Positions 135 to 46,242 of a stretch of 57,820 nucleotides of DNA are shown here, piece after piece. Made by a program: the position numbers and the translations under genes. Source of the DNA: Bacteroidales bacterium (GTDB lineage: Bacteria > Bacteroidota > Bacteroidia > Bacteroidales > UBA10428); NCBI GenBank assembly GCA_016935355.1, contig JAFGRC010000056.1:1-57820 (forward strand). Direction: 5' to 3'. Under the pieces are notes generated by a model. It did not search any database. It was not told the DNA's origin and was given only the letters and a program-made list of their open reading frames with translations. Numbering within the stretch: position 1 is the first letter of the stretch; every line of letters starts with the position of its first letter.

Positions 135-388
135 TCTTACAGTTTTGGAATTTTCGTATAGAATGATGCTTGCCTGAGCATATGACTGCCCAATCTGGAA
201 GTTGAATATCATTTTTTATACGATTTGTCAATACATATTTTTAGTGAAATACTCCTGTATGGAAAATATTTCAGTCAAAAGGGCCATCCTGACTTCGTTT
301 TCATGACAGGTGAGCGTTTTCATTTTCTTCGTGAGTCGGATACCCGCAATGATGAATGGGTTTTAACGTACCCTGATCACAAATTTCC

Positions 389-682
389 TCAATACACATC
401 GCAGTTCTTCATGAATTTCAAATCGTAAAAATCCTCAAGATTTTCTTCTATGATCATCGTATCGCCGGTCGACCATTTTTGGGCATAAGGCTTTCCTCTT
501 AAATAATAACAGCGCGTATTTGTTGGATTCTTAAACCAGACCTTCCTCTTCTGCACGGCATATACGATCAGTGCCTTTTGCTGGTACAACGCATAATGCG
601 TTTCTTCGATCCTGTCGGCCACCCTTGAAACTGAACCGCAGGATAACATGAAGAAGAATCCGGCGCACAGCGCTTTATTCAT
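389..682 (-). CDS. Small lipoprotein of unknown function
   Basis: A 97-residue protein with a short hydrophobic N-terminus (residues 4-13) ending in FFMLSCGS, a lipobox-like site that would make Cys15 the lipidated residue. The mature part is basic and aromatic (VQKRKVWFKN, CYYLRGKPYAQKW) with no family I recognise. It reads away from the glycogen synthase tail, and no partner gene is adjacent on its strand. The 254 bases between it and the synthase hold only weak open frames without a recognisable product. A lipoprotein location is likely; the function is unknown. Confidence 0.55.
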   Translation of the reverse strand: MNKALCAGFFFMLSCGSVSRVADRIEETHYALYQQKALIVYAVQKRKVWFKNPTNTRCYYLRGKPYAQKWSTGDTMIIEENLEDFYDLKFMKNCDVY

Positions 683-737
683 TTGGTCTGTATTCCTTTC
701 GCTTCAAGTTACGGATTTTGTTGTATAAATCCGTATT

Positions 738-2069
738 CTATTTCAGATTTTTGGAGGGGATCAGCCAGGCTGCCACACCGGATATCAGCAACGGAATAGA
801 AAAAAGAATAAACAATGTGGAGATCGACAAGCCAAGATCTGATAATACCCCAAACAATGCCGGGCCGGCAATGGCGCCAAAGCGTCCCGCACCTATTGCC
901 CATCCGGTTCCGGTTGTCCTGATCTCGGTTTCATATACCCTTGTGGTAGCCGGCCAGTAACCATTAAAACCGCCCTGTACAGTAATGCCTATAAAGAAGG
1001 TAGCAATGAAAACTATGACATAGCTCAGTGAGATATTTCCATAGGTTACCATGATTCCGAAAGCAATGGCAAAGAATGTAAATATCAATTTCTTGAGATT
1101 AAATCTGGCAGCCAGCCATCCTATTCCTGTACTTCCAAGGAAAGCACCAACATTGAGCACTGTTCCGACATAGGTTGCCATTTTGAATGGCATACCTGAA
1201 TCCGTTGCAATACTGGGTACCCAGCTTATTAACGTATATAATGTCATAAAACCAAAAAATATTCCAATCCACAATAAGATGGTTGATTTGCTGTATTCCC
1301 TGGTAAACAGAATGCGAACACCCGGCTTCTGAGTCGTTTTCTGGTCGGGAAGCGCCTCAATCTTTTCATGGCCCATTTTTTTCAACACCTTGTTTATTTT
1401 CTGCAGGGCATTTTTTGGCTGGTACTTCCATAAATACTCAATGGACTCGGGCATGAAAAACACAATCATCAACAACATAAGGCCAGATATTGTTCCCGCG
1501 GAAAAGAAAGCAAAGCGCCATCCGAATCCGGGAACCGCCCAGGCGGTATAGAAACCCATAAAAATTGCACCTATTGGCCATCCCGCCTGCACAAAGCCGA
1601 CAGCCAGGTCTTTTCTTCTGTTGTTCGAAAATTCAGATGCAACAGCTGCCATTGTCGGCAAAAGCCCTCCGATCCCCAGTCCGGAAACAAACCGCAAAAA
1701 CAGCAGTTGTCCGTATCCCGTAACAAGGGATGAAAGAAGCATCCCTGCCGTTTCCATTGCCATTGCAAAAATGAAAAGTTTTCGTCTTCCGATCCTGTCT
1801 GCCAAAGGAGCAATCAACAGACATCCTAAAGTCATGCCCGCCAAACCGGCGCTAAAGATATATCCTTGCTGTGCTTTTGTAAGACCCCATTCACTTAATA
1901 TTTCTGATCCCGTATAAGAAACGACCAATACGTCTATCCCATCGTTCATGTTCAGGATGAAGCACATGATGACAATGACCACCTGAAATGCAGTCATGTT
2001 ATTGTTTGAGATCAGATCTTTAATGAGATTTCCCTTTGATGTGTGATTTGCCTGCTCTGCCTTCTTCAT
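738..2069 (-). CDS. Major facilitator superfamily transporter (metabolite/proton symporter type)
   Basis: A 443-residue polytopic membrane protein with about 12 predicted membrane segments. The MFS signature between helices 2 and 3 is clear (LADRIGRRK, residues about 89-97). The central loop is cytoplasmic and lysine-rich (residues about 215-255), and the motif MPESIEYLW lies before it, as in the sugar and aromatic-acid:H+ symporter branches. It starts 16 bases after the zinc dehydrogenase at 2086-3105 on the same strand, so the two are probably co-transcribed and the transporter may import the polyol, sugar acid or related substrate of that enzyme. The exact substrate cannot be read from the sequence. 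Confidence 0.85.
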   Translation of the reverse strand: MKKAEQANHTSKGNLIKDLISNNNMTAFQVVIVIMCFILNMNDGIDVLVVSYTGSEILSEWGLTKAQQGYIFSAGLAGMTLGCLLIAPLADRIGRRKLFIFAMAMETAGMLLSSLVTGYGQLLFLRFVSGLGIGGLLPTMAAVASEFSNNRRKDLAVGFVQAGWPIGAIFMGFYTAWAVPGFGWRFAFFSAGTISGLMLLMIVFFMPESIEYLWKYQPKNALQKINKVLKKMGHEKIEALPDQKTTQKPGVRILFTREYSKSTILLWIGIFFGFMTLYTLISWVPSIATDSGMPFKMATYVGTVLNVGAFLGSTGIGWLAARFNLKKLIFTFFAIAFGIMVTYGNISLSYVIVFIATFFIGITVQGGFNGYWPATTRVYETEIRTTGTGWAIGAGRFGAIAGPALFGVLSDLGLSISTLFILFSIPLLISGVAAWLIPSKNLK

Positions 2070-2085
2070 AAAATGTCTGGATTCA

Positions 2086-3105
2086 TTATTGTTGCATGCT
2101 GATTACGATCTTGCTTTCTTTCCCTTTTGAAGCTTCTTCCAGTGCTTTTTGCGATTCTTTCAGAGAAAAATAACGGCTGACAATAAATCCGGGATGAATG
2201 ATACCTTGTTGAACCAGGAAAATGGTTTTTTCATAACCGGAAGGGTGGTCATAAATTAACGAAGTGCTGACTAAAATTCCCTTTTTTGCCAAATCCATCG
2301 GAATGAAAGAAGCGGGTTTATCAGAAAGTCCAAGTAAAATAACCTCTGATCCCCTCGGAGCAACCTTGATAGCCATGGATGCGGTTTTACCGGAACCCGC
2401 ACATTCAAATACAGATTTTACACTTTCTTCCTGACAGGTTTGACAGATCCGCTCCGCAACTTCTTCATGATTCAGCCCTTTGCCAACCGGTATTGCCCCC
2501 ATATCGACGGCAATTTTTGTTTTATTTTCGGATATTTCCACTACCAAAACCCTGTATCCAAATGCCAGCGCAATATGTGTGATCAACAGTCCGATTGCCC
2601 CGAGTCCGATCACCAGTATTGTGTCGCCCGGACTGGCCCCGGACCGGTTTATGGCGCTAAGTGCAACGGCAGCCGGTTCAATGGTCACGGCATCGGTATC
2701 TGAAATGGAATCCGGAATGCTCCAGGCAAACGAATCGGGTACGATTACATATTCTGCAAGGCAACCGTTTTCAGTGACACCAATGATACGTTTGTTCCTG
2801 CATATATTTCCGCGACCTGACAGGCACTCCGGACAGGTCATGCAGGGGATATTCGGCTCAATTACAATCCTTTCTCCTGTTCTTCCCGGATTTACATCTG
2901 GTCCTGTTTTATCGATTCTTCCCAGACCTTCGTGACCTATAGTCAGCGGATCATGTTCCGGTCTCCCTTTATGAAACAAATGCACATCCGATCCGCAAAT
3001 ACCTGTCATGGCCAACCGGACCCTTACTTCTCCCCGTCCGGGCTCAGGATTTAAGGTTTCTTCCAGTCGGATGGAACCCGATTTTACAAGGGTGGCTCTT
3101 AGCAT
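2086..3105 (-). CDS. Zinc-dependent alcohol/polyol dehydrogenase (MDR family)
   Basis: A 339-residue medium-chain dehydrogenase of normal family length. The catalytic zinc ligands are visible as Cys37 (GICGSD) and His58/Glu59 (IGHEG). The structural zinc set is Cys88, Cys91, Cys94 and Cys102 in PCMTCPECLSGRGNIC. The nucleotide-binding turn GLGAIG is at 167-172. The pattern fits the sorbitol/L-idonate/threonine dehydrogenase branch, which oxidises secondary alcohols with NAD(P)+ in the cytoplasm. It is the first gene of a two-gene unit with the MFS transporter downstream, suggesting uptake and oxidation of one small polyol or sugar acid. Substrate unknown. Confidence 0.88.
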   Translation of the reverse strand: MLRATLVKSGSIRLEETLNPEPGRGEVRVRLAMTGICGSDVHLFHKGRPEHDPLTIGHEGLGRIDKTGPDVNPGRTGERIVIEPNIPCMTCPECLSGRGNICRNKRIIGVTENGCLAEYVIVPDSFAWSIPDSISDTDAVTIEPAAVALSAINRSGASPGDTILVIGLGAIGLLITHIALAFGYRVLVVEISENKTKIAVDMGAIPVGKGLNHEEVAERICQTCQEESVKSVFECAGSGKTASMAIKVAPRGSEVILLGLSDKPASFIPMDLAKKGILVSTSLIYDHPSGYEKTIFLVQQGIIHPGFIVSRYFSLKESQKALEEASKGKESKIVISMQQ

Positions 3106-3391
3106 GTCATTTATACTAATGGTTTTGTATTCTGTTCAGAAAATTATTCGATTCAGCCACCAGGCTGGTTCATATCCTTCCTTATCCATTGCAGGATATC
3201 TGAATCCGGCCTCCCGGGCATAAATGAATGGCTGTATCCTGCTGTGTATAACTGCAGATACTGAAAACAATAAAGATAATGCTGGATGCACATGCTTTCA
3301 CGGGTACTTTGTTTTATCCGGTATATACCTTATTATGTTCTTTAGCAGTTGAATGTATGGATTTATTTTAAATTATAAAATAGATTGTTAG

Positions 3392-3493
3392 ATTTATTCA
3401 AACGGAGGTCACGGAATTGTCAGTCCCGATATTGAAAAAGACGGCGCAGACTGGATGGCCAGAATGCATTTATCAGGTCCGGATGATGATTGA
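3392..3493 (+). pseudogene. Short C-terminal relic of an unidentified gene
   Basis: The 427 bases between 3106 and 3532 contain no intact gene. Inside them, 33 codons from 3392 to TGA 3491-3493 have no start codon but read like real protein (NGGHGIVSPDIEKDGADW and so on), following directly on a stop codon and AT-rich sequence. A GGHG followed by a tryptophan 14 residues later is seen near the C-terminus of some alpha/beta hydrolases and esterases, but this is too short to assign. It is most simply the 3' stump of a deleted gene. The rest of the gap shows nothing I can name. Confidence 0.3.
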
Positions 3494-3532
3494 AAGCAGC
3501 GCTGCCAAATAAGGAAATTAATATTGTGCCGG

Positions 3533-4864
3533 TTATCTGATAATTGTAAGTGTTATGCTTTCTCCTTTCTCAGATACAACAAGATAAGTGCCCATGGGAA
3601 GAAGTGTTCCGTTTGAATCGTTGCCATCAAAATAAACGGGACCGGTAAGTCTGCGTTTCAAATTACCGTTGCGGTCAAAGATCCTGACGGATCCCTCGAA
3701 ACTGATGAAATACCTGTCATCCAATCCGTCTTCATTGGGCGAAAACACCGGACGGTCGTTCAGGCAGTCTTTTCTTACAACCAGGTTCTGCGGATAACGG
3801 AGTGCACATCCATTATCATTGATGATTTCAAGACTGTAAACACCTTCAGGTAATTCTGTTAAAGTACTGACTTCTGAATTATCAATCAGGTTGGTAACTT
3901 TGTAAGTATAGGGAGGTCTACCGCCTGCAATTTCCTGATCCCGGATTTCGATCCTGCCTTTTTCATAACAATCAGCATCTCCGATTCTTAAATCTACATT
4001 GACAATAGATATCTTTTCAACCTGAAATGTATCGGAATTGCTGCACCCTTTGTCATTTGTAACCCTGTACCATATGGTGGCAGCTTCTGTCAGTCTCACT
4101 TCCTGACTTACAGTACCTGTGGACCACTGAACCGATCTGTACCCATCCGTTACTGAAAGGGTTAGTGCATCCCCGCATATAAACGTATCGGGCATACTGA
4201 TAATCGGCGGGATTTCATTTAAGGTCAGGGTCAGACTGTTGGAGTTTAAGCACCTGTCAGAATTTAATGCAATAGTATAATCTCCTGCTGCACTGGTGAC
4301 CGGATCAATCAATCCTGTTTCAGCATCAATGTTGAGGTTGTTATCAGCTTGAAACAACAGGTTTTCAACCGGATGACTTAATAATGGCCGTATGTCTTTT
4401 TCATTAAGACAATATTCCGGCTTCGGATAACCGACGTTTATCCGTTCATAATCAAGTATATTGATGCTATTGGTTGCCGTGTTTGAAAAAATTAACGGAT
4501 TGTCAGACTCAACCTGTGATATGTGCTCCAGTATGCAATTTTCATTGCTGAGCCAGATCTTCAGGTTCAGTGGATCCCCGGCATTAAATCCGTCCGTTGT
4601 GCCATCAGATCCGTAAACTGTAATCCTGAAATCTGCAGTATCCTTCCAACGTGCCAGTCCGAAACACCTTCCTGCATCATCAAATATCCCGATAAAATCG
4701 CCCTCGGACAGGGATTGCCCGTCAATCCGGGGAATGCAGTTTATGATTAACGGGACAGCATTCAGAGATGCCGAAGGTGTAACCCACGGAACGGTTTGTC
4801 CCGATAACGTGATGAAAGCCGTCAGTCCGGTAACTGTCACGATATGTCGAAGGTTGAACAGCAT
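3533..4864 (-). CDS. Secreted T9SS cargo protein with gliding-motility-type C-terminal domain
   Basis: A 443-residue protein with an N-terminal signal peptide (residues 1-23, ending LSGQT). The middle holds Ig-like and SprB-like modules; one (about 290-360) contains GGRPPYTYKV and ends with paired cysteines. The last 75 residues (369-443) are a CHU_C/gliding-motility C-terminal domain: FSPNEDGLDDRY, then LLPMGTYLVV and a final LTIIR. In Bacteroidota this domain is a type B T9SS sorting signal, so the protein should be exported across the outer membrane. It lies close to a PorP/SprF gene, the usual partner of such cargo. The function of the displayed part is unknown. Its last two domains resemble those of the anti-sigma factor at 7842-9005. 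Confidence 0.85.
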   Translation of the reverse strand: MLFNLRHIVTVTGLTAFITLSGQTVPWVTPSASLNAVPLIINCIPRIDGQSLSEGDFIGIFDDAGRCFGLARWKDTADFRITVYGSDGTTDGFNAGDPLNLKIWLSNENCILEHISQVESDNPLIFSNTATNSINILDYERINVGYPKPEYCLNEKDIRPLLSHPVENLLFQADNNLNIDAETGLIDPVTSAAGDYTIALNSDRCLNSNSLTLTLNEIPPIISMPDTFICGDALTLSVTDGYRSVQWSTGTVSQEVRLTEAATIWYRVTNDKGCSNSDTFQVEKISIVNVDLRIGDADCYEKGRIEIRDQEIAGGRPPYTYKVTNLIDNSEVSTLTELPEGVYSLEIINDNGCALRYPQNLVVRKDCLNDRPVFSPNEDGLDDRYFISFEGSVRIFDRNGNLKRRLTGPVYFDGNDSNGTLLPMGTYLVVSEKGESITLTIIR

Positions 4865-4910
4865 ATTCAGGTATCAAAGTCTGACAATCCAAATTTACAA
4901 ATTAATCCAA

Positions 4911-5912
4911 TTATTCAACTGAATCGGTAAAGGCTAATTCATTTGACCTTAAACGCAATACCGGATAACCAAAATTGTTATAACGGTATTTATAGCATAC
5001 TGCTCTTTCCAAAGAACCATTATCAAATACAATGGCGGTAACGTTGTTCGGTGATATGACATCCATCCACTCAAACAATGAGGAAACCGGGAGATTGAAA
5101 TCTCTGAAAGGATTTATGGCGTTATCATATTTATAATATACAACCCATTTACGGATCACATCATTTACACTTGCAGCAAGCGGAGCGGGATAATAGAATG
5201 CTTTACGCTCTATATTATTTCTGTTGTCATAATAAAGATGGCAAATGAATTGCAGCACATCCGATTCGTCATGATAACCGGCTATTTTTACGAGTCTGCC
5301 CGACCTGTCATATGTGTAGGTGAAATAATACGGAGGCCGGTCGGGTTCTTTGACGGCTTTTTTCACCATGTTACCCGTTTTATCATAATACAGGTATTCG
5401 ATCTTTTCCCTGTCCTCAGCAGCATTCGGCCAATTCGTCACAATAACGGCCAATTGTCCGGCTGTATTATATTTGTAATTCTTCCTGACCCTCACATTTG
5501 TGAGTTGAGGTGTATTGGTCCGGTCATACCTTAAAATTTCGGCCAGTCGTCCGGCATTGTTATACACAAACCTGTCCTGCATATAAACATATCTTGGGGC
5601 GATATCCGCAGCACTTGTCGTAATTCCGATATTCCTCCTGAAATAATTGATGTTAAACAACCTGCCGTACCGGTCATAGGTATACGTAATGTAATCCTCC
5701 CGGTACTGCGAAACCGACGCATGTGTAATGAGAATACTATCTTCCACAACAATGTCGGGAACAACAACCATAGTTGTGTCTGTGGTTACTGATTTCAGAT
5801 CTCCTGAATGCATCTGATCGTATTCATCATCTGTGAGGTCATCCTGCTCGCATGCAAATGCGAGCATGAATAACAAAGCACTTGCAAATACTTTCATTCT
5901 TTTTGTTTTCAT
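4911..5912 (-). CDS. YD-repeat-like lipoprotein
   Basis: The ATG at 5912 is chosen because it places a clean lipoprotein signal (MKTKRMKVFASALLFMLAFAC) at the N-terminus; the frame opens 37 codons earlier, but that stretch is not signal-like. The 333-residue product contains at least six short repeats of the type YDRYGRLFNINY, YNNAGRLAEILRY, YDRSGRLVKIAGY and YDNRNNIERKAFY, i.e. RHS/YD-like units about 30-45 residues apart. Such repeats form extended beta-structure on the cell surface or in the periplasm. It sits between the T9SS cargo gene and PorP/SprF on the same strand. Function unknown; a role on the cell surface is inferred. Confidence 0.75.
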   Translation of the reverse strand: MKTKRMKVFASALLFMLAFACEQDDLTDDEYDQMHSGDLKSVTTDTTMVVVPDIVVEDSILITHASVSQYREDYITYTYDRYGRLFNINYFRRNIGITTSAADIAPRYVYMQDRFVYNNAGRLAEILRYDRTNTPQLTNVRVRKNYKYNTAGQLAVIVTNWPNAAEDREKIEYLYYDKTGNMVKKAVKEPDRPPYYFTYTYDRSGRLVKIAGYHDESDVLQFICHLYYDNRNNIERKAFYYPAPLAASVNDVIRKWVVYYKYDNAINPFRDFNLPVSSLFEWMDVISPNNVTAIVFDNGSLERAVCYKYRYNNFGYPVLRLRSNELAFTDSVE

Positions 5913-36366: not shown

Positions 36367-39246
36367 TCAAAAGAATTTATAACCCATACTGAAGCTGAAG
36401 CTGGTGCCGGAATGCAGCCGGTTAAAATATTGATCATCAGCTTTAAACGATTTAAAGACCGATTCGTTCCTGGCATTCAGGATGTTTGAGATCTTAAAAC
36501 CGGTCTGAAGGCGGTTGTTTTTGCCCAGACTCATATTTGAATTGAAGTTCAGGCTGTGGAATGGCTTGGAGTATATGTCCGGACGGTCGGCTATGCCTAT
36601 ATATTGAAGGGTTTGTCCCTGAACATTGTAATACAGGCCGGCTTCAATTGCGTTCCACAATCCGCTAAAATCTCCACTGTATGAGATACCGCAGTTAATG
36701 ATAAAGGGTGACTGACCTGCCATATCGCGGTACTCATCAAAAATCTGACCGGTACGGGCGGTTTCAACCCTTGAATTGTATTCGGTTTTGCTCATTTTGA
36801 TGCGTGATTTGGCATAGGTCAGGTTTGCAGAAAAATTAAAGCCTCCGATCAGATTCTGGCGGATCTCGACTTCGGTACCGGTAACCTCGCCATTACCAAC
36901 ATTCCGGGGTTGAAAAGCCCCGATTTGTGTCGCGTATTGAACAATCTCGATTGGATTGTCAAATCTCTTGTAGAAACCGCTTACCGATATCATTTGACCT
37001 CCGGTCCGGTAGAATTCCCAGCGAAGATCAAAATTATTGATATAGGTGCTTACCAACTTCCCATCCCAATATTCTATGCCGGTCAAATCGTTGGCATCCC
37101 GGAACAAACCGCCCACGAAAGTGCGTCCGTTAATCGGGTCATAAATCTCTGCATATGACAGTTCCTTGAAGGATGGACGGGCGATTGTCCTGGAATAAGA
37201 AAATCTCAGATTTTGTTTTTCGCTCAGGTTATAAACCAGACTCACTGATGGAAAGAAATCCAGATCATCAAGCACCTTATCATTTTCAAGGATGTTGTTG
37301 CCCAGCTGGTCTTCTCCGGAATAACGCTGCACAAAATTTTCGACGCGAACTCCGGCGATGGCTTTTAAATTGCTGAAAGGACATAATTCAATGGATGAAT
37401 AGCCGGCAATATAGTTCGTGCTGGCACTGAATTGGTTTGGATTTGTCGGAATGAACGGAGCCTCGTAAGTGGTGCCTTTTGATGGATTTTCATCCATCGG
37501 CCATAAATTTTCAGGATCGAAAAGCTCATTCGGGTCACCGGTGAGCGGCACATTCCTGATGTTAAGCGCAAAACTGCGGATGACAAAATCACGTTCCTTA
37601 TAAGTGTAAGACCCTCCAAACCGAAATACTGCTTTCTGATTCCTGAATTCAAATTCTTTTGAAACATTCAGTATGCCGGACAAATTGATTTCCTCCAGGT
37701 TACGCCATATCCTTTCGGGGAATCCCGACTCGGTATTGATTTTGTTAGTTCCCTGATCCACCACATATCTTGTAAAACGTATATCAGGATCTTCAATCTT
37801 AGAGAGGGTCGGGGAAAATTTCCAATCAATGTCCCAGCCCGAATTCATAAAATGATGCTTGCCGTTCAAAAGAAGGTTGGTGAGTGATCGTTGGCTGTAT
37901 TCCAGATTGTGCTGATAACCTGAGAAAACGCTACCCTGGTCAGATCCCTTATAACTGAATATACCGGCTGTGGATTCTCCGTTTTGCAAGTGAAGCAAGT
38001 TGATCCGCACTTTGGACCGGAGTGTTTTTATTGCAATACCTGCCAGTCCGCTCACCAGAACATTACTGATTCCGTAGTTCCCGAGCTGGAATTCACGCAC
38101 ATCCATCTCATATTCACTACCGCTGTTTGGCAGTCCGTAACTTCCGTATTCAGCATTTTCATAATATTCCGTATTGTTCTTATAGGAAAGGGTAAAGCTG
38201 TATCCAAGTGTAAACTTCTTAAAGGCTGATTGGTTTCCGAAAGAAGTTCCGAAATTGTAATCCATGAAACTCTTTTGTTTAAATGCGGCCATTTCAGGAT
38301 TAAAACCTTCAAGAATTTCCCGGTACCGGACACCTTGTTCTCCATCAGGATTTCCAACAACTTCCACAAAAAACGGTATGTTGGCAATGGCCGGGATGGC
38401 ACGCGTACCATCATCAAAACCAAGGAAATCGGTTTTCCCTCCGGTATAGGTCAGGTAATCACTGTTAAAATGAAAACCGGGATTGTAACCAACTCCCAGG
38501 GAAACGCTGGCTGTCTTTGTTTCAGGAAAATCCTTGACCGCAATATCAACGACGCCACCTGTGAAATCTGCAGGCAGCTCAGCGCTGAAGGATTTATGAA
38601 CGATGATGTTATCCAGGATGTTGCTGGGGAATATGTCCATCTGCAAGGTGTTGCGGTCGGGATCCAGACCCGGAATATCCACTCCGTTAAGGATGGTCTT
38701 GGTATAGCGGTCACCCAGTCCGCGCACATATACATATTTTCCGCCCGTAACGGACACACCGGGAACACGTTTCATGGAGGATGCTGCGTCCGGGTCTCCT
38801 ATTTTCTTAAAGTTAACAGCTGAAATGCCGTCCAGCAGGTTGGGGGATATCTGTTTGATGGTGAGCAGGGCTGTTTCCGTATTCCTGACCCGTCCCGCAG
38901 TAATGACAACTTCTTCAATTTCTATGGATGCTTCTTTCATACGCAGTTCTTCCAGAAGGATTACTTCTCCTGATTTTACCTCAAGATCATCAATAATGAT
39001 CGTTTCGTATGAAACAAATGATATTCTGAGATCATATTTGCCGGGATCAAGGTTGAGATTGAATGCACCGTCAAGATCGGTCATCGTGCCTGTTAAGACT
39101 TCTTCGATGTAAACGGTCACGCCGGGAAGCGATTCACCGGTTGCATCATCTATGACTGTCCCTCTGATTATGCCACTGTCAGCGGCATGCAAAAGGAGAT
39201 ATGCAAACAGTAAACAAATCAGGGTAAAAATTTTTTTTGTACGCAT
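36367..39246 (-). CDS. TonB-dependent receptor of the phosphate-linked type (CarboxypepD_reg N-terminus)
   Basis: A 959-residue outer-membrane receptor. After a signal peptide (ends LLLHAAD), the carboxypeptidase-regulatory-like domain lies at about 25-100 (IIRGTVIDDATGESLPGVTV), then a plug with KRVPGVSVTGGKYVYVRGLG, GLDPDRNTLQMDIFP and ELPADFTGGVVDI, and a barrel ending FSMGYKFF. It is not of the SusC type. It follows 98 bases after the lipoprotein at 39345-40793 and sits beside PhoR/PhoB-like genes; I know this receptor and lipoprotein pair as a neighbour of phosphate regulators in Bacteroidota. It probably imports a phosphate compound, which is inference. Confidence 0.87.
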   Translation of the reverse strand: MRTKKIFTLICLLFAYLLLHAADSGIIRGTVIDDATGESLPGVTVYIEEVLTGTMTDLDGAFNLNLDPGKYDLRISFVSYETIIIDDLEVKSGEVILLEELRMKEASIEIEEVVITAGRVRNTETALLTIKQISPNLLDGISAVNFKKIGDPDAASSMKRVPGVSVTGGKYVYVRGLGDRYTKTILNGVDIPGLDPDRNTLQMDIFPSNILDNIIVHKSFSAELPADFTGGVVDIAVKDFPETKTASVSLGVGYNPGFHFNSDYLTYTGGKTDFLGFDDGTRAIPAIANIPFFVEVVGNPDGEQGVRYREILEGFNPEMAAFKQKSFMDYNFGTSFGNQSAFKKFTLGYSFTLSYKNNTEYYENAEYGSYGLPNSGSEYEMDVREFQLGNYGISNVLVSGLAGIAIKTLRSKVRINLLHLQNGESTAGIFSYKGSDQGSVFSGYQHNLEYSQRSLTNLLLNGKHHFMNSGWDIDWKFSPTLSKIEDPDIRFTRYVVDQGTNKINTESGFPERIWRNLEEINLSGILNVSKEFEFRNQKAVFRFGGSYTYKERDFVIRSFALNIRNVPLTGDPNELFDPENLWPMDENPSKGTTYEAPFIPTNPNQFSASTNYIAGYSSIELCPFSNLKAIAGVRVENFVQRYSGEDQLGNNILENDKVLDDLDFFPSVSLVYNLSEKQNLRFSYSRTIARPSFKELSYAEIYDPINGRTFVGGLFRDANDLTGIEYWDGKLVSTYINNFDLRWEFYRTGGQMISVSGFYKRFDNPIEIVQYATQIGAFQPRNVGNGEVTGTEVEIRQNLIGGFNFSANLTYAKSRIKMSKTEYNSRVETARTGQIFDEYRDMAGQSPFIINCGISYSGDFSGLWNAIEAGLYYNVQGQTLQYIGIADRPDIYSKPFHSLNFNSNMSLGKNNRLQTGFKISNILNARNESVFKSFKADDQYFNRLHSGTSFSFSMGYKFF

Positions 39247-39344: not shown

Positions 39345-40793
39345 TTAAAAACCGGTATCGTCGAGCGCTCCTGAAGCAGCAGCCCATGACCAGCCGTCGA
39401 AGGCGGAGACATCGGCTCCAACGGTATTTTCTCCGGCATTTACAACGGTAACAAAAGCATCACTGCCATCTTGAAAGAAATCTGTTACAGCAGTTCCCTC
39501 AGGCAAGGTGACCTCAAAATTCATGAAACTGCAGACATAGTCGATCGGGATTTGATCAAAATCCTGTCCGGCATTCAACCCGAAGAAATAAATACCGTCC
39601 ATATCCACCCATGTGTTGGCGTCATTGTCGACAAGTCCTTCAGCATTACCTGCATATACAGAGCCGTTTTGAAGCGTATATTTGGCTTCCAGGGTACCTT
39701 CCGGGCCATCCAGCTCAAAGCACTCATCGCCGGGATTTACCACGATGAAATTATCCAGTGTTCCGCCCCATGACTGGTCAGCGTCAATTGCATCGTCACC
39801 GGCATTCCATACAAGTGCATGGGTAACATTTACAGTACCGCCGAACCATTCTATACCATCGTCCTGGTTTGCCACAACTTCAATATTTTCGATAACAGTT
39901 CCTGAACCCACACCGCCCAGTGTCAGTCCGTTGATCTCGTTTCCTTCACCGATGTTGCTGCCGCCATGACGGATCGATACATAACGGATCACTCCCGAAT
40001 TATCGGCAGGATTTGTACCACCGTACAGGCCGTTCTGATCGGATGGAGGAATGCCTTCAATCTGAACGGAAGCCGCATCGGCGGAGATGGGAGCGTTTCC
40101 AAGGATTATCAGTCCACCCCAAAGCCCGTTCAGATCAGGATCAAGATTCGGGCTTGACACTTCACCCGGCATGATCTCATCGGCGACCGATGTGAAAATG
40201 ATAGGGGAATTTGCAGTACCTTCAGCCATCAGGGTGCCTCCGCGTGCAATCAAAAGAGCCGTGGCATTAGGACCGGTACCGGCCTGCCCCTTGACAATCA
40301 CACCCGGTTCAATAGTCAGCGTAACACCATTTAAAACTGAAACACGACTTTCCAGTAGATACACTTTACCGGTTTCCCATGTGGTATTCTGCGTAATGTT
40401 TCCGGTTACCGAAAAGATGATTTGCTCTTCAACCACGCTGATGACGGCCGTGGCTGATCCGGACTGATTTTCCGTATCGGTGACTGTAAGCGTAACCGAG
40501 CCGGCGCCCACAGTATTTCCTGCTGTATATGATACAGCGATGGTGCCGGATTTTGCACTGCTTGTGGCTTCACCGGTGACAACTGCATTGCCGTTCGTAA
40601 CCACCAGTGCTGAGGTCTTGAAGCCTGCTTCGGCAGAAAAGTTAAAGGTCAGGTCGATCGAAGTTCCTGCTTCAGCAGTCTGTGTTGACGGTGCGGTTAC
40701 TGAAGGAACACTGAATGTTGTTTCTTCCTCGCATGAATTGAATATCAGCGCAAAACCGGCCAGCAACAAAAATAATTTAATTGGATTTTTCAT
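39345..40793 (-). CDS. Surface lipoprotein with Ig-like and beta-helix domains, partner of the TonB receptor
   Basis: The ATG at 40793 is preferred (MKNPIKLFLLLAGFALIFNSC, lipobox Cys21); an upstream ATG adds five residues. The 482-residue product has an Ig/cadherin-like domain (about 27-125), then GNITQNTTWETGKVYLLES and parallel beta-helix turns (LTIEPGVIVKG, PIIFTS, GLWGGLIILG, NNIEVVANQDD-type turns), with acidic Asp/Asn-rich loops. It is the first gene of the operon with the TonB receptor. A candidate -7 site and Pho-box-like repeats lie just upstream. It likely binds a ligand outside the cell for the receptor. The ligand is unknown. Confidence 0.8.
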   Translation of the reverse strand: MKNPIKLFLLLAGFALIFNSCEEETTFSVPSVTAPSTQTAEAGTSIDLTFNFSAEAGFKTSALVVTNGNAVVTGEATSSAKSGTIAVSYTAGNTVGAGSVTLTVTDTENQSGSATAVISVVEEQIIFSVTGNITQNTTWETGKVYLLESRVSVLNGVTLTIEPGVIVKGQAGTGPNATALLIARGGTLMAEGTANSPIIFTSVADEIMPGEVSSPNLDPDLNGLWGGLIILGNAPISADAASVQIEGIPPSDQNGLYGGTNPADNSGVIRYVSIRHGGSNIGEGNEINGLTLGGVGSGTVIENIEVVANQDDGIEWFGGTVNVTHALVWNAGDDAIDADQSWGGTLDNFIVVNPGDECFELDGPEGTLEAKYTLQNGSVYAGNAEGLVDNDANTWVDMDGIYFFGLNAGQDFDQIPIDYVCSFMNFEVTLPEGTAVTDFFQDGSDAFVTVVNAGENTVGADVSAFDGWSWAAASGALDDTGF

Positions 40794-40834
40794 AGCATCA
40801 AATTTCATTTATAAATTACCTGATATAACTGATG

Positions 40835-40842
40835 CAAAGCTA
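40835..40842 (-). promoter_or_regulatory. Candidate -7 promoter element of the lipoprotein/TonB receptor operon
   Basis: The minus strand reads TAGCTTTG, a full match to the Bacteroidota -7 consensus TAnnTTTG, 41 bases upstream of the start codon. A -33 TTTG is not obvious; instead 11-bp repeats begin 22 bases further upstream, where an activator could replace it. Confidence 0.6.
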
Positions 40843-40863
40843 TTCCCGGAATATTAAGAAAAT

Positions 40864-40892
40864 GTTACCGTGTGATTAAAGTATTATTAAGC
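40864..40892 (-). promoter_or_regulatory. Pho-box-like 11-bp direct repeats upstream of the lipoprotein operon
   Basis: On the minus strand three 7-mers, GCTTAAT, CTTTAAT and CGGTAAC, occur exactly 11 bases apart (plus-strand starts 40886, 40875, 40864). This is the spacing of OmpR/PhoB-family sites. They end 22 bases upstream of the candidate -7 element and share GTAAC with the repeats before phoB (43713-43752). Confidence 0.55.
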
Positions 40893-40941
40893 AGTGTAAA
40901 AGAAATGAACAGCAGTAAATAATTGAAAAACAATATTCAAA

Positions 40942-40958
40942 GATTGTTATTAACAATC
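40942..40958. promoter_or_regulatory. 17-base perfect palindrome in the intergenic gap
   Basis: GATTGTTA-T-TAACAATC is a perfect inverted repeat of 8 bases per arm. It lies between the PhoR-like gene end (41191) and the lipoprotein promoter, in a 397-base gap that otherwise holds only the repeats listed. It could be an operator for a dimeric regulator or a weak terminator. Confidence 0.35.
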
Positions 40959-41190
40959 GGCAGGTGTTTTTATCGTTCCGTTAGTCATACAAAGTGATTC
41001 AATAATTACTCATAACTAATTCCGTTGATGTCTCTATGTGTGATCTCAAGTACCATTTTATTACCATTAAAGATCTATACCTTAACAGATTAGTGTTTTA
41101 GGGTTATTTAATAGACCAAACGGGGTATATGTAATAATTTTATTCTGTGATTAAATGATGAATGGATCAGGTGATGAATTGATAAACAAC

Positions 41191-42960
41191 TCACCGCAAT
41201 TTTTTTGAAATGGTGAATAAGAACTCCAGTCCTCCTTCATTGCGATTTTTTACGGAAATAACACCTTTATGAAACTCAACGGCATTTTTCACAATGGCAA
41301 GTCCGAGTCCCGTACCACCTTTATTGCGATCACGTCCTTTATTAACCCTGTAAAAGCGCTCAAAAAGCCTTGGCAGATCATCATCCGGAACTCCCCTTCC
41401 ATTATCTGAAAATGAAAAATAAAAGAATTTCGAATCTTCCGCGTATTTTTCGATATTTATGGTGATATCCATGCCTCCATGACCTATGGCATTATCAATC
41501 AGGTTCCTGAACACAGAGTACATCAACACCGGATTGCCTTTTAATAGCAATTTACCTCCAAGGTCGGTTTTTAATTTTATATGATGTTCATCCAGACTGG
41601 GTTGTATTTCCTGCCTGATTTCGTTGATGATCTCATGAAGATCAATGGTCTCGATCTCATACAGACTTCCGGCTTCCTCAATTTTTGTGAGCAAAGAGAT
41701 ATCATTAATCAGTTCGGCCAGCCGGCATGACTGAGAATAAGCCCTGCGCAAGAAATCAAGTGTTTTTTCCTCATCTGGATTACTTTCAATAATTGTTTCA
41801 AGTAAACCCTTAATGGAGCTTACCGGCGTTTTCAACTCATGTGCAATGTTTTCGGTGAGCTCATGTTTCAGCAGTTTACGCTTCGCAGGTTTGGTTGCAT
41901 CCTGGATTGAAACTTCGAAACTTCTATCCTGAAAGACAATGCTCCTTACAACATAATACTTACCGCTTTTGTTTATACTGATCTCATATGCAGGCTGAGG
42001 ATCTGCGGGATCTTCCTCTTCATTCTGAATATACTTATTGATAAAAGCGAACAACGGTTTAAAATCTTTAATCATGAAAAAACCCTCTGCTGAATACAAC
42101 CTGCGATCGCTGATATGATTGATAAACTGCATAAAATGATTGTTGCTGACAATCATATGCTTATCCTTGGAGAAAATGGCAACACCTTCTTCAAGAAGGT
42201 CAATATGCCTGATGAGTTTCTCCCGTTCCGACAGCAGATCCTCTTTCGACTGGTTCAGTCTCTGGTAAATCTCAATTATCTCCTGTCCGATGGAGCCCAG
42301 TTCATTATCGGGAAATACAAGACCTTCTTCAAGAGGTTTGTTTGCAAAAGCCCTCAGTGTGAATTCACGCAATGTGCTGATCGATTTTCCAAATTTGTCC
42401 GTGATTAAAACAACACTGAATGAAGTTATTAATAAGATCAACACGACAAACATCATGAAGATCATATCGGGCTGGATGAACTGCCTTGCTTCAATATCAT
42501 ATACAACAGATATCCTGATAAAATATCTGTCAAAATGTTTTGCATAATAGTAGTATTTTATTTTTGTTGTTGCCGAAACACGAATGTCTGTACCAAATTC
42601 CTTGTTAAGTGACTCCTGTATTTCAGGACGGTACAGATGGTTTTCCATTGTACTGAAGTCTTCGACCTGCGAATCATACCATACCACACCATAGGGTGCG
42701 ATTAAGGTTATTCTCAGTGTATTACCCGGGATCAGATCTTCAAGTATATTTAGTTCTGAATAGGATTTACTGTAGTATAACTGATACTTTTGAATATACC
42801 TTTCAATTAAACCGACGTAATTGTTCATTTCGTCATTCAGTGCATCAATACGAATGTTCTTTTCATGTCGATACTGTATGATCAGTAATATGGTCGCAAA
42901 AAAAACAAAGAAAGAAACTACATAAACAAGCCACTTCTTATTATAGGAAGAAAAACTCAT
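41191..42960 (-). CDS. PhoR-like sensor histidine kinase
   Basis: A 589-residue membrane kinase. Two membrane helices (about 10-29 and 166-188) enclose a periplasmic sensor of about 135 residues. A cytoplasmic region with HAMP/PAS-like features (about 190-355) precedes the H-box NIAHELKTPVSSIKG with His374, then the N-box (FRNLIDNAIGHGG), G1 (FSDNGRGVPDD) and G2 (KGGTGLGLAIVKN). It phosphorylates the response regulator encoded 9 bases upstream on the same strand. The layout is that of PhoR, which senses phosphate shortage. The identity as PhoR is inferred from family and from the neighbouring receptor operon. Confidence 0.87.
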   Translation of the reverse strand: MSFSSYNKKWLVYVVSFFVFFATILLIIQYRHEKNIRIDALNDEMNNYVGLIERYIQKYQLYYSKSYSELNILEDLIPGNTLRITLIAPYGVVWYDSQVEDFSTMENHLYRPEIQESLNKEFGTDIRVSATTKIKYYYYAKHFDRYFIRISVVYDIEARQFIQPDMIFMMFVVLILLITSFSVVLITDKFGKSISTLREFTLRAFANKPLEEGLVFPDNELGSIGQEIIEIYQRLNQSKEDLLSEREKLIRHIDLLEEGVAIFSKDKHMIVSNNHFMQFINHISDRRLYSAEGFFMIKDFKPLFAFINKYIQNEEEDPADPQPAYEISINKSGKYYVVRSIVFQDRSFEVSIQDATKPAKRKLLKHELTENIAHELKTPVSSIKGLLETIIESNPDEEKTLDFLRRAYSQSCRLAELINDISLLTKIEEAGSLYEIETIDLHEIINEIRQEIQPSLDEHHIKLKTDLGGKLLLKGNPVLMYSVFRNLIDNAIGHGGMDITINIEKYAEDSKFFYFSFSDNGRGVPDDDLPRLFERFYRVNKGRDRNKGGTGLGLAIVKNAVEFHKGVISVKNRNEGGLEFLFTISKKLR

Positions 42961-42969
42961 GTTAATAAG

Positions 42970-43665
42970 CTAATCGATTTCAAGGCAATATCCGTACCCT
43001 GATCTGCTGATCAGATGTTTCCCGTATTTACCCAGCTTTTTTCTTAAACGGGTAATGTGCACATCAACGGTCCTGTCAATTACAGTAACATCCCGCCATG
43101 CATAATTCAGTATCTGTTCCCGGCTAAAAGTAGTACCCGGACTCTTCATCAGAAGCTGTAAGATCCTATATTCATTAGGTGTTATATTGGTTTTAACCCC
43201 ATCCACAAAAAGTCTCTTTTTATCAAGATTCATCTCAAGCCCAAGAAATTTCAACTTTTTATCATTTCCTTTTGATATTAAATCTGATCCCGATCTGGAC
43301 AGCACTGCCTTTACCCTTGCTATCAGTTCCCTGATTGAAAATGGTTTTGTTATGTAATCATCAGCTCCCAGAGTGAAGCCCGTTAGCTTATCATTTTCTG
43401 AATTCTTTGCAGTCATGAATATGATGGGCTTGTCCAGTTGCTTTTTTTTTCGCAATTCATCTGCCAGCATAAAACCCGACATACCTTTCATCATGATATC
43501 CAGCAGAAAAAGGTCGTATTCATTAAGTTTCATTTTCAAAGCCTGTTCCGAAGAATTAACTGTGTCAACATGAAATCCCTCTGATTCCAGGTTGAACTTA
43601 ATGATTTCACATATGTCATCTTCATCATCAACGACCAGAATCCTGAATCCAAAATTTTGCATCAT
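42970..43665 (-). CDS. PhoB-like response regulator (OmpR family)
   Basis: A 231-residue two-domain regulator. The receiver has Asp13/Asp14 and the phospho-acceptor Asp56 (LLDIMMKG), with Lys (ITKPFSIREL) in the conserved position. The C-terminal winged helix (about 130-231) includes TPNEYRILQLLMKSPG and DRTVDVHITRLRKKLGKYG. It pairs with the kinase 9 bases downstream. Four Pho-box-like repeats lie 48-90 bases upstream of its start, suggesting autoregulation. It most likely drives the receptor operon at 36367-40793 through the same repeat type. Confidence 0.88.
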   Translation of the reverse strand: MMQNFGFRILVVDDEDDICEIIKFNLESEGFHVDTVNSSEQALKMKLNEYDLFLLDIMMKGMSGFMLADELRKKKQLDKPIIFMTAKNSENDKLTGFTLGADDYITKPFSIRELIARVKAVLSRSGSDLISKGNDKKLKFLGLEMNLDKKRLFVDGVKTNITPNEYRILQLLMKSPGTTFSREQILNYAWRDVTVIDRTVDVHITRLRKKLGKYGKHLISRSGYGYCLEID

Positions 43666-43712
43666 CTGATACTAAGCTTGTTGTTAATTTTTTACGAAAT
43701 AATAAAACATTT

Positions 43713-43752
43713 CTTACACACATGTTACAAATTCGTAACAAAAATATTACAA
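43713..43752 (-). promoter_or_regulatory. Array of four Pho-box-like 11-bp direct repeats upstream of phoB
   Basis: On the minus strand four 7-mers follow each other at exact 11-base steps: TTGTAAT, TTGTTAC, TTGTAAC and GTGTAAG, separated by 4-base AT-rich spacers. This is the layout of the E. coli Pho box (two 7-mers, 4-base spacer) doubled. The consensus is TTGTAAC-like, related to the repeats before the lipoprotein operon. Confidence 0.65.
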
Positions 43753-44892: not shown

Positions 44893-46242
44893 ATGAATCA
44901 TATGGAAACAAAAAAAGAAATAAAAATTCTCATCTGGATAATCGTTGTATTTGCATTTGCATTCTTTCTTCCCATTGAAAGCGCCCGTTTTAACACTGCC
45001 ATAACGGCTATGCTCGACCTTGTGAAATGGTATGCCCGCGAGCATGTAGTGCTTTGCCTTTTGCCCGCCTTTTTTATTGCCGGTGTGATCTCCGTTTTTG
45101 TAAGTCAGGGGTCAGTGCTGAAATATTTCGGAGCCAATGCAAAAAAGTGGCTGGCTTATTCGGTTGCAGCTGTTTCGGGCACTATTTTAGCCGTATGCTC
45201 CTGTACTATTCTGCCGTTATTTGCCGGCATTCACAAACGTGGTGCAGGTCTGGGCCCTGCAATTGCTTTTCTGTATTCGGGTCCGGCCATCAACATTCTT
45301 GCCATTATTCTTACTGCACGCATTCTGGGATTTGAAATGGGTGCAGCCCGAGTGACAGGGGCTGTGGCATTCAGCATTGTAATTGGAATTGTAATGTCAC
45401 TGATTTACAATAAAGAAGAAAAGGTTAAACGTGAAGAACAAATGAACATTTCCCCTCAGCCTGAAAAACGACCTATGTGGCAGACTTCCTTTCATTTCTT
45501 TGTTCTGGTTCTAATCCTCGTTTTTGCAAATTGGGGGAAACCCGGTGAGGATGATACGACAAGTATCTGGTTCTATATCTGGTCATGCAAATGGTATATT
45601 ACCGGATTTTTCAGTGTCCTGCTTGGTTATTCCCTGATAAGAATATTGAAAATAAAATGGCAGTGGGTGCTGCTGGCCGCTGTCACAACCATCGCTTCTG
45701 CATTGCTGGCTTCCGGGTTTATTAACAATGATAAGCTGGCACCGCTGGTCCCTATGCTCTTTGGTATCATCTCATTAAGCATCATCACATTAAACGACAA
45801 AAACGAACCTGAGAACAGGGAATGGACACTGGCTTCCTGGGATTTTGCCAGGCAAATAATGCCCCTTCTTGCTATAGGTGTGGTTATTGCCGGTTTTCTG
45901 CTGGGGTCCACACACAACGGCACATCAATACCAGGAGTGATACCTGATGAATGGATTGCTGCACTTGTGGGCGGGAATTCTGTTCTTTCAAATTTATTCG
46001 CTTCTGTTGTTGGAGCATTCATGTATTTTGCAACACTCACTGAGGTGCCTATTTTACAGGGACTGATTGCTTCAGGAATGGGAAAAGGTCCTGCTCTGGC
46101 TTTACTGCTGGCTGGCCCTTCACTGTCATTGCCCAACATGCTGGTTATCCGGGATGTTCTGGGAACTCAAAAAACTTTTGTTTACGTAATACTGGTTGTT
46201 ATTATGGCAACCCTAAGCGGATTAATATATGGTAATTTATGA
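44893..46242 (+). CDS. ArsP-type permease (DUF318/YraQ family)
   Basis: A 449-residue membrane protein with about 10 helices. The Cys-rich helix AVCSCTILPLFAGIHKRGAG (about 99-118) and FLYSGPAINILAI are hallmarks of the DUF318/YraQ permeases, which include ArsP, the exporter of trivalent organoarsenicals. The second half repeats the pattern (TLTEVPILQGLIASGMGKGP, LLAGPSLSLPNML). A second ATG 3 codons in is also possible. It lies among ArsR, ArsC and ACR3, so metalloid export is likely. Which arsenic form it exports is not shown. Confidence 0.83.
   Translation: MNHMETKKEIKILIWIIVVFAFAFFLPIESARFNTAITAMLDLVKWYAREHVVLCLLPAFFIAGVISVFVSQGSVLKYFGANAKKWLAYSVAAVSGTILAVCSCTILPLFAGIHKRGAGLGPAIAFLYSGPAINILAIILTARILGFEMGAARVTGAVAFSIVIGIVMSLIYNKEEKVKREEQMNISPQPEKRPMWQTSFHFFVLVLILVFANWGKPGEDDTTSIWFYIWSCKWYITGFFSVLLGYSLIRILKIKWQWVLLAAVTTIASALLASGFINNDKLAPLVPMLFGIISLSIITLNDKNEPENREWTLASWDFARQIMPLLAIGVVIAGFLLGSTHNGTSIPGVIPDEWIAALVGGNSVLSNLFASVVGAFMYFATLTEVPILQGLIASGMGKGPALALLLAGPSLSLPNMLVIRDVLGTQKTFVYVILVVIMATLSGLIYGNL

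Follow-up and report, generated by a model that had tools for sequence, protein, structure and literature searches.

The DNA analysed here (the window) is one complete contig of 57,820 nucleotides from a Bacteroidales bacterium, whose genome of 2.83 Mb is assembled in 173 contigs and is 94% complete. Part of the window carries phoB and phoR, the genes of a response regulator and its sensor kinase, and 382 bases past phoR comes the gene of a predicted lipoprotein, followed by that of a TonB-dependent receptor. Two arrays of short direct repeats lie in this locus, one upstream of phoB (array 1) and one upstream of the lipoprotein/receptor operon (array 2), each followed by a promoter element of the Bacteroidota form TAnnTTTG or close to it (Table 1). 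Judged from their sequence, the arrays are very probably a switch that turns on phoBR and the receptor operon when phosphate runs out.

Table 1. Positions of the repeat arrays, promoter elements and genes at the phoBR locus of the window
Feature	Positions	Strand	Details
Candidate Pho-box array 1, upstream of phoB	43713..43752	-	TTGTAAT / TTGTTAC / TTGTAAC / GTGTAAG; exact 11-base period
In-phase -7-like element TTATTTCG, imperfect TAnnTTTG	43695..43702	-	10 bases past the last unit's GTAAG
phoB, OmpR/PhoB-family response regulator	42970..43665	-	NF053854 RespRegPhoBBctds, 308 bits (cut-off 270)
phoR, sensor histidine kinase	41191..42960	-	NF053855 HisKinPhoRBctds, 645.5 bits (cut-off 500)
Candidate Pho-box array 2	40853..40892	-	GCTTAAT / CTTTAAT / CGGTAAC / TCTTAAT; 11-base period
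-7 element TAGCTTTG (TAnnTTTG)	40835..40842	-	10 bases (40843-40852) from the last TTAAT
Predicted lipoprotein, 487 amino acids, operon gene 1	39345..40808	-	no Pfam family
TonB-dependent receptor, 959 amino acids, operon gene 2	36367..39246	-	Pfam Plug and TonB_dep_Rec_b-barrel

Two repeat arrays at the phoBR locus

By the curated NCBIfam equivalog cut-offs, which both proteins exceed, the regulator qualifies as the Bacteroidota PhoB equivalog and the adjoining kinase as PhoR. The closest structures to the PhoB DNA-binding domain in the PDB are those of E. coli PhoB (3t72, 1qqi, and 1gxp), and its recognition helix reads vidrtvdvhitrlrk, compared to vedrtvdvhirrlrk in E. coli.

Array 1 reads just as the initial annotation of this DNA had described it, with four 7-mers at exact 11-base steps. 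Together these agree with four copies of TTGTAAC at 24 of 28 positions, whereas the best score from 300 dinucleotide-shuffled versions of the window was 21. Array 2 had been described as three units (40864-40892). Its 11-base steps stand, but the units had been misread and a fourth, TCTTAAT at 40853-40859, which continues the period, had been overlooked. A core of GTAAC was said to be shared by all units, and this is true of a single unit in each array (one of four in array 1 and one of the three then listed in array 2), while the others differ. The proposed consensus of TTGTAAC, with GTAAC throughout, is therefore corrected to TKTAAY (where K is G or T and Y is C or T), with G predominating at phoB and T at the receptor operon. 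In its three-unit TTGTAAC form, array 2 scores 12/21, which is no better than chance since the window contains 355 places with an equal or higher score. As KTAAY units (TTAAT, TTAAT, GTAAC, and TTAAT), it fits at 20 of 20 positions; 300 shuffles reach at most 19, and array 2 is the sole exact match to four such units in its own genome. The pair TTGTAAC-N4-TTGTAAC, which had been suggested as a genome search, gave 36 matches with up to two mismatches against 39 for the control and is useless alone.

The perfect TAnnTTTG reported near array 2 is present, with a gap of 21 bases to the three units first described. The promoter was also said to have no clear -33 element, and direct reading agrees: no TTTG stands where the customary spacing rule would place it.

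Both arrays are kept in the nearest relative (genome G001). Array 1 differs there by one unit base and is retained along with its -7-like element, and array 2 is identical over its four units, except for two spacer bases, and nearly identical down to the -7 element. In both promoters the flanks have diverged, leaving a footprint that covers the arrays and their -7 elements. A lack of conservation in orthologous promoters, which the initial annotation had named as grounds for refutation, is thus not what is seen. In G001, the receptor operon sits on a different contig from phoBR, which means that its conservation is not explained by the adjoining phoBR genes.

Spacing and phase in related promoters

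The spacing, which came from the initial annotation, was studied in 200-base stretches ahead of 41 receptor/lipoprotein operons. Of these, 18 came from genomes with a PhoB like that of the window (type A, described below) and 23 from others. This is a selected set made of 21 lipoprotein matches with an intergenic-looking upstream region, 17 receptor-first operons, and three further loci. At a spacing of 11 bases, at least two in-phase KTAAY units were found in 32 of the 41 promoters, compared to 4-11 promoters at spacings of 7-10 and 12-18. At least three units were found in 14 promoters at spacing 11 and in none at the other spacings. When the promoters were shuffled, a mean of 3.6 (maximum 9) had at least two units and a mean of 0.07 (maximum 3) had at least three. 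The opposite strand showed some excess at spacing 11 as well, with at least two units in 20 of the 41.

The arrays also keep a fixed distance to the promoter. With the -7 element called blind to the arrays in 34 of the 41 promoters (the other seven were dropped), the KTAAY units start at -15, -26, -37, -48, -59, and -70 relative to the TA in TAnnTTTG. Between -70 and -10, 74 units fall in this main phase versus 0-6 in each other phase. The longest array met was in genome G050 (L193 / L294), where six successive units at exact 11-bp steps precede a TonB receptor gene and stop 10 bp before TAGCTTTG.

The same grammar is seen at phoB itself. Across nine phoB promoters from the genus, agreement with TAnnTTTG is highest at offset 15 (4.75 of 6, and about 2 elsewhere), and 13 of 26 phoB promoters have at least two in-phase units at spacing 11, with 2-5 at other spacings. 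The promoters of the pst genes for phosphate transport played no part in the choice of motif. A pstC match was present in 55 of 99 related genomes, and loci were obtained for 30 of these matches; one short region and three loci with neither PhoB type were dropped from the count. The region before the first gene was used, or the region before pstC at several loci in which pstS was not located. At least two in-phase units at spacing 11 occurred in 5 of 10 type-A genomes (0-2 at other spacings) and in 11 of 16 genomes with the second type of regulator, type B (0-4 at other spacings). Where a -7 element was called, 28 units were in phase with it versus 0-3 in each other phase. At locus L245 of genome G024 (3515-3725), divergent porin-pstS and pstCAB promoters have separate arrays, each phased to its own TTTGC element.

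We then scanned 295 genomes of the order blind for three exact units followed at the set distance by TAnnTTTG, with the reversed pattern as a control. The scan returned 58 matches in 49 genomes versus one match to the reversed pattern. The genes behind 30 of the 58 loci were assessed, and these included PHO4 (two), a PstS-like protein (one), Porin_O_P (three), porin-like proteins (two), PhoB-like regulators (three), TonB receptors (three), and a metallophosphoesterase (one). A plainly phosphate-linked or receptor gene was thus present at 15 of the 30 loci, or 17 with the addition of a glycosyltransferase and a DedA protein, the latter of a family found beside pstS in G024. The remaining loci had no clear or related gene (eight) or encoded secreted CarboxypepD_reg-domain proteins of 114-121 amino acids behind a perfect box-plus-promoter (five: L302, L307, L308, L309, and L310). 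These small proteins are possibly a new kind of phosphate-starvation protein.

A set of 203 upstream regions contained 18 with at least three in-phase units and serves as a list only; as a background it is biased because most of the loci were fetched for their phosphate genes. By an assessment made partly by eye, the 18 precede receptor or lipoprotein genes (six), phoB (three), porin genes (three), PhoU-like genes (two), a phosphoesterase gene (one), and a PstS-like gene (one). The last two precede a second TonB receptor of G004, behind a phosphodiesterase-like lipoprotein, and a porin-like gene of G024 divergent from pstC. Within the order, arrays with the 11-base period recur ahead of phoB and pst as well as receptor/lipoprotein operons.

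Two PhoB lineages

Arrays of this kind occur with two lineages of PhoB. Type A is NF053854, and type B is an OmpR-family regulator, called at E ≤ 1e-60, whose initial examples share 33-34% identity with type A and fall under the PhoB cut-offs. Among the 99 relatives, type A is present in 24 and type B in 60, while one genome has both and 16 have neither (Fisher p = 4e-11, with relatedness ignored). A homologue of the lipoprotein is present in 56 of the 99 genomes, and all are among the 83 with type A or type B; none of the 16 with neither has one. This linkage to PhoB-type regulators, together with the induction reported for Flavobacterium johnsoniae (PMC8115612), supports the suggestion that the receptor and lipoprotein are tied to phosphate.

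The first base of the in-phase units differs between the lineages. In the regulator's own promoter, the ratio of G to T is 19:4 for type A phoB and 1:15 for type B. The corresponding ratios are 7:1 and 5:32 in pst promoters and 12:24 and 4:29 in receptor promoters, giving pooled ratios of 38:29 and 10:76 (p = 2e-9, although the units are not independent). The box therefore varies slightly with the regulator, and least at the receptor operon.

In the genus of the window, nine genomes (its own included) have type A only and one, G008, has type B only. At locus L196 of G008 (167-5564), a type-B regulator gene lies between the genes of the phosphate transporter PiT and a TonB receptor, where relatives have phoBR; a comparable locus in G003 holds receptor, phoBR, and PiT. 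Regulator replacement is a possible account of the G008 locus.

These comparisons tip us somewhat towards a broader view, in which a common Bacteroidota Pho operator, an 11-bp TKTAAY repeat locked at -15/-26/-37/-48 to TAnnTTTG, would be read by two largely exclusive PhoB lineages that differ in favouring G or T at one position. In the genus of the window, one lineage would have taken the place of the other at the phosphate locus, with the box grammar of the receptor operon kept. This means that the regulator would have been swapped under a conserved regulon.

The proposed phosphate switch and its alternatives

The reading that we favour, with a probability of about 0.84, is built on sequence comparison. 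It holds that both arrays are Pho boxes, through which PhoB would autoregulate phoBR and activate a phosphate-starvation lipoprotein/TonB-receptor operon. During phosphate starvation, PhoR would phosphorylate PhoB, and head-to-tail PhoB subunits would occupy the 11-bp TKTAAY repeats, with 10 bp between the end of the last slot and the TAnnTTTG of the -7 element. PhoB would stand in for the missing -33 recognition by contacting sigma and holding it on the promoter, as in E. coli. Array 1 would then serve the autoregulation of phoBR, and array 2 would turn on the lipoprotein and receptor, a putative phosphorus-scavenging outer-membrane system. The analysis shows the sequence of the arrays, their spacing, their phase to the -7 element, their conservation, their recurrence at pst and other phosphate genes, and the identity of PhoB and PhoR. 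That PhoB occupies the arrays, that it activates and does not repress, and what the receptor takes up are the parts of this scheme that we infer. The initial annotation had also taken the arrays for Pho boxes, and this interpretation is supported, while the observation beneath it is partly confirmed.

A Pho box is defined by at least two 11-bp direct-repeat units, each with about seven conserved and four less conserved bases, and the consensus of the 11-nucleotide repeats known from E. coli differs among species (PMC4415409). In E. coli, the box sits 10 bp upstream of the -10 element (PMC1906773). The arrays of the window have at least two such units and a gap of about 10 bp to a -10-type element (array 2, and array 1 with its imperfect -7 in the same phase), and arrays occur at the phoB and pst genes of the same group of bacteria. 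The recognition helix matches as well. The units are TTGTAAC-like and TTAAT/GTAAC instead of the E. coli consensus CTGTCAT, which does not bar them from being Pho boxes because that consensus is species-specific (PMC4415409). The layout of an E. coli Pho box with a different base content, as first proposed, thus agrees with what is seen. Unlike the E. coli box, the unit is TKTAAY, the element downstream has the Bacteroidota form TAnnTTTG, arrays reach six units (G050), and TonB receptor/lipoprotein operons are among the targets.

Related systems offer further likenesses. The cyanobacterial SphR box CTTAACCT also consists of tandem repeats with a TTAAC core, of 8 bp plus a 3-bp linker for a total of 11 bp (PMC1906773), but it belongs to a cyanobacterial regulator and its promoters, whereas here one position alternates between G and T and the array keeps a fixed phase to TAnnTTTG. 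The PhoP of Mycobacterium tuberculosis binds direct repeats of 7 bp that are set apart by 4-bp spacers (PMC4832192). Among the Bacteroidota, the PhoP motif of Riemerella anatipestifer from DNA affinity purification sequencing, TTTAACA, shares the core TTAAC, but the consulted part of that report compares it to the motif of ArcA and describes it without an 11-bp periodic array or phase (PMC9603813). In the phoBR operon of F. johnsoniae (PUS IV), TonB receptor Fjoh_0545 and lipoprotein Fjoh_0546 stand beside PhoBR and are strongly induced by low phosphate; the source, as far as consulted, describes no operator, and the likeness to the window is one of gene kinds (PMC8115612). The PhoB of Bacteroides fragilis binds the pst promoter in an electrophoretic mobility shift assay, and the part of the report at hand names the Pho box as a concept only, without a defined sequence (PMC3547664). 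No paper defining a Bacteroidota Pho box was recognised in searches of the open-licence literature.

Several observations weigh against the Pho-box reading. The KTAAY motif was picked after the receptor promoters had been viewed, and related genomes are not independent samples. Half of the phoB promoters (13 of 26) have fewer than two in-phase units, including copies that seemingly lie directly after phoU, and array 2 is mainly TTAAT, resembling the boxes of type B. In the bacterium's own genome, PstB was not found (best match 142 bits versus a cut-off of 343), and there was no match to PstC, although phoBR is present. Of the phosphate transporter families sought there, only PiT was found (753 amino acids, contig C117), and its promoter has no clear array by eye. 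The four-unit pattern with up to two mismatches gave 12 matches in this genome and its reversed control gave 10, which means that an imperfect array alone says little, and the array-plus-promoter pattern with up to one mismatch gave three versus seven. As these counts are near or below the control, no wider regulon is visible in this genome, and the idea of one was set aside for lack of any excess past arrays 1 and 2. With no PstB or PstC found and PiT without a clear array, the strong case here is limited to the receptor operon and phoBR promoters. Three further near matches lie at loci L200, L280, and L281. A scan of 10 genomes allowing one mismatch placed many matches of genus members at phoB and receptor loci, as read from their coordinates.

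It is unlikely that array 1 alone is a PhoB box and that array 2 is a relic of the type-B lineage, read today by a different OmpR-family regulator if by any. Array 2 is TTAAT-rich, as type-B boxes are (see the pooled ratios above), and orthologous receptor/lipoprotein operons often adjoin a type-B regulator, as in 15 genomes and at loci L097, L099, and L106. However, no type-B regulator was found in the bacterium's own genome at E ≤ 1e-60, array 2 is conserved in G001, which likewise has type A only, and the receptor promoters of other type-A genomes are T-rich too (12 G and 24 T), with the phase to the -7 element kept.

Direct repeats of this kind are bound by many OmpR-family regulators. It is very improbable, though, that the arrays are operators for a different regulator of this family and unrelated to phosphate, even with the Riemerella PhoP motif reported as ArcA-like and tied to redox genes (PMC9603813), since arrays precede phoB, pst, phosphate-selective porin, PiT, and PhoU-like genes and lipoprotein homologues are confined to genomes with a PhoB type. 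Chance repeats in AT-rich intergenic DNA, to which the near-control count of imperfect four-unit matches genome-wide and the chance-level score of the three-unit array 2 might point, run counter to the specificity of the spacing, the locked phase, the footprints, and the blind scan and are already refuted by the scan's 58 matches versus 1.

Bacteroidota PhoB matters for survival in abscesses and for the turnover of phosphorus in soil. If the Pho-box reading is right, a fixed promoter geometry would allow the Pho regulon to be predicted from sequence across a phylum with promoters unlike those of E. coli, and the box would flag TonB-receptor operons that probably serve phosphorus rather than carbohydrate. 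It would also offer a test case of one response regulator replacing another without loss of the regulon.

As to the operon's products, the receptor was tried as a SusC/RagA-type protein (TIGR04056) and reached 61 bits of the required 368.25; it is not classed as SusC and is TonB-dependent by Pfam. The structure model of the lipoprotein is weak (mean predicted local distance difference test [pLDDT] 64.8, six sequences), and a fold search with it gave mainly N-terminal matches of the Ig-like kind and a questionable one to pectate lyase, for which reason no function is claimed. Beyond phoB and divergently transcribed from it is an ArsP/SO_0444-like permease gene (PF03773; window 44893-46242), whose product scores under the NCBIfam cut-off for the Cu/Zn efflux equivalog.

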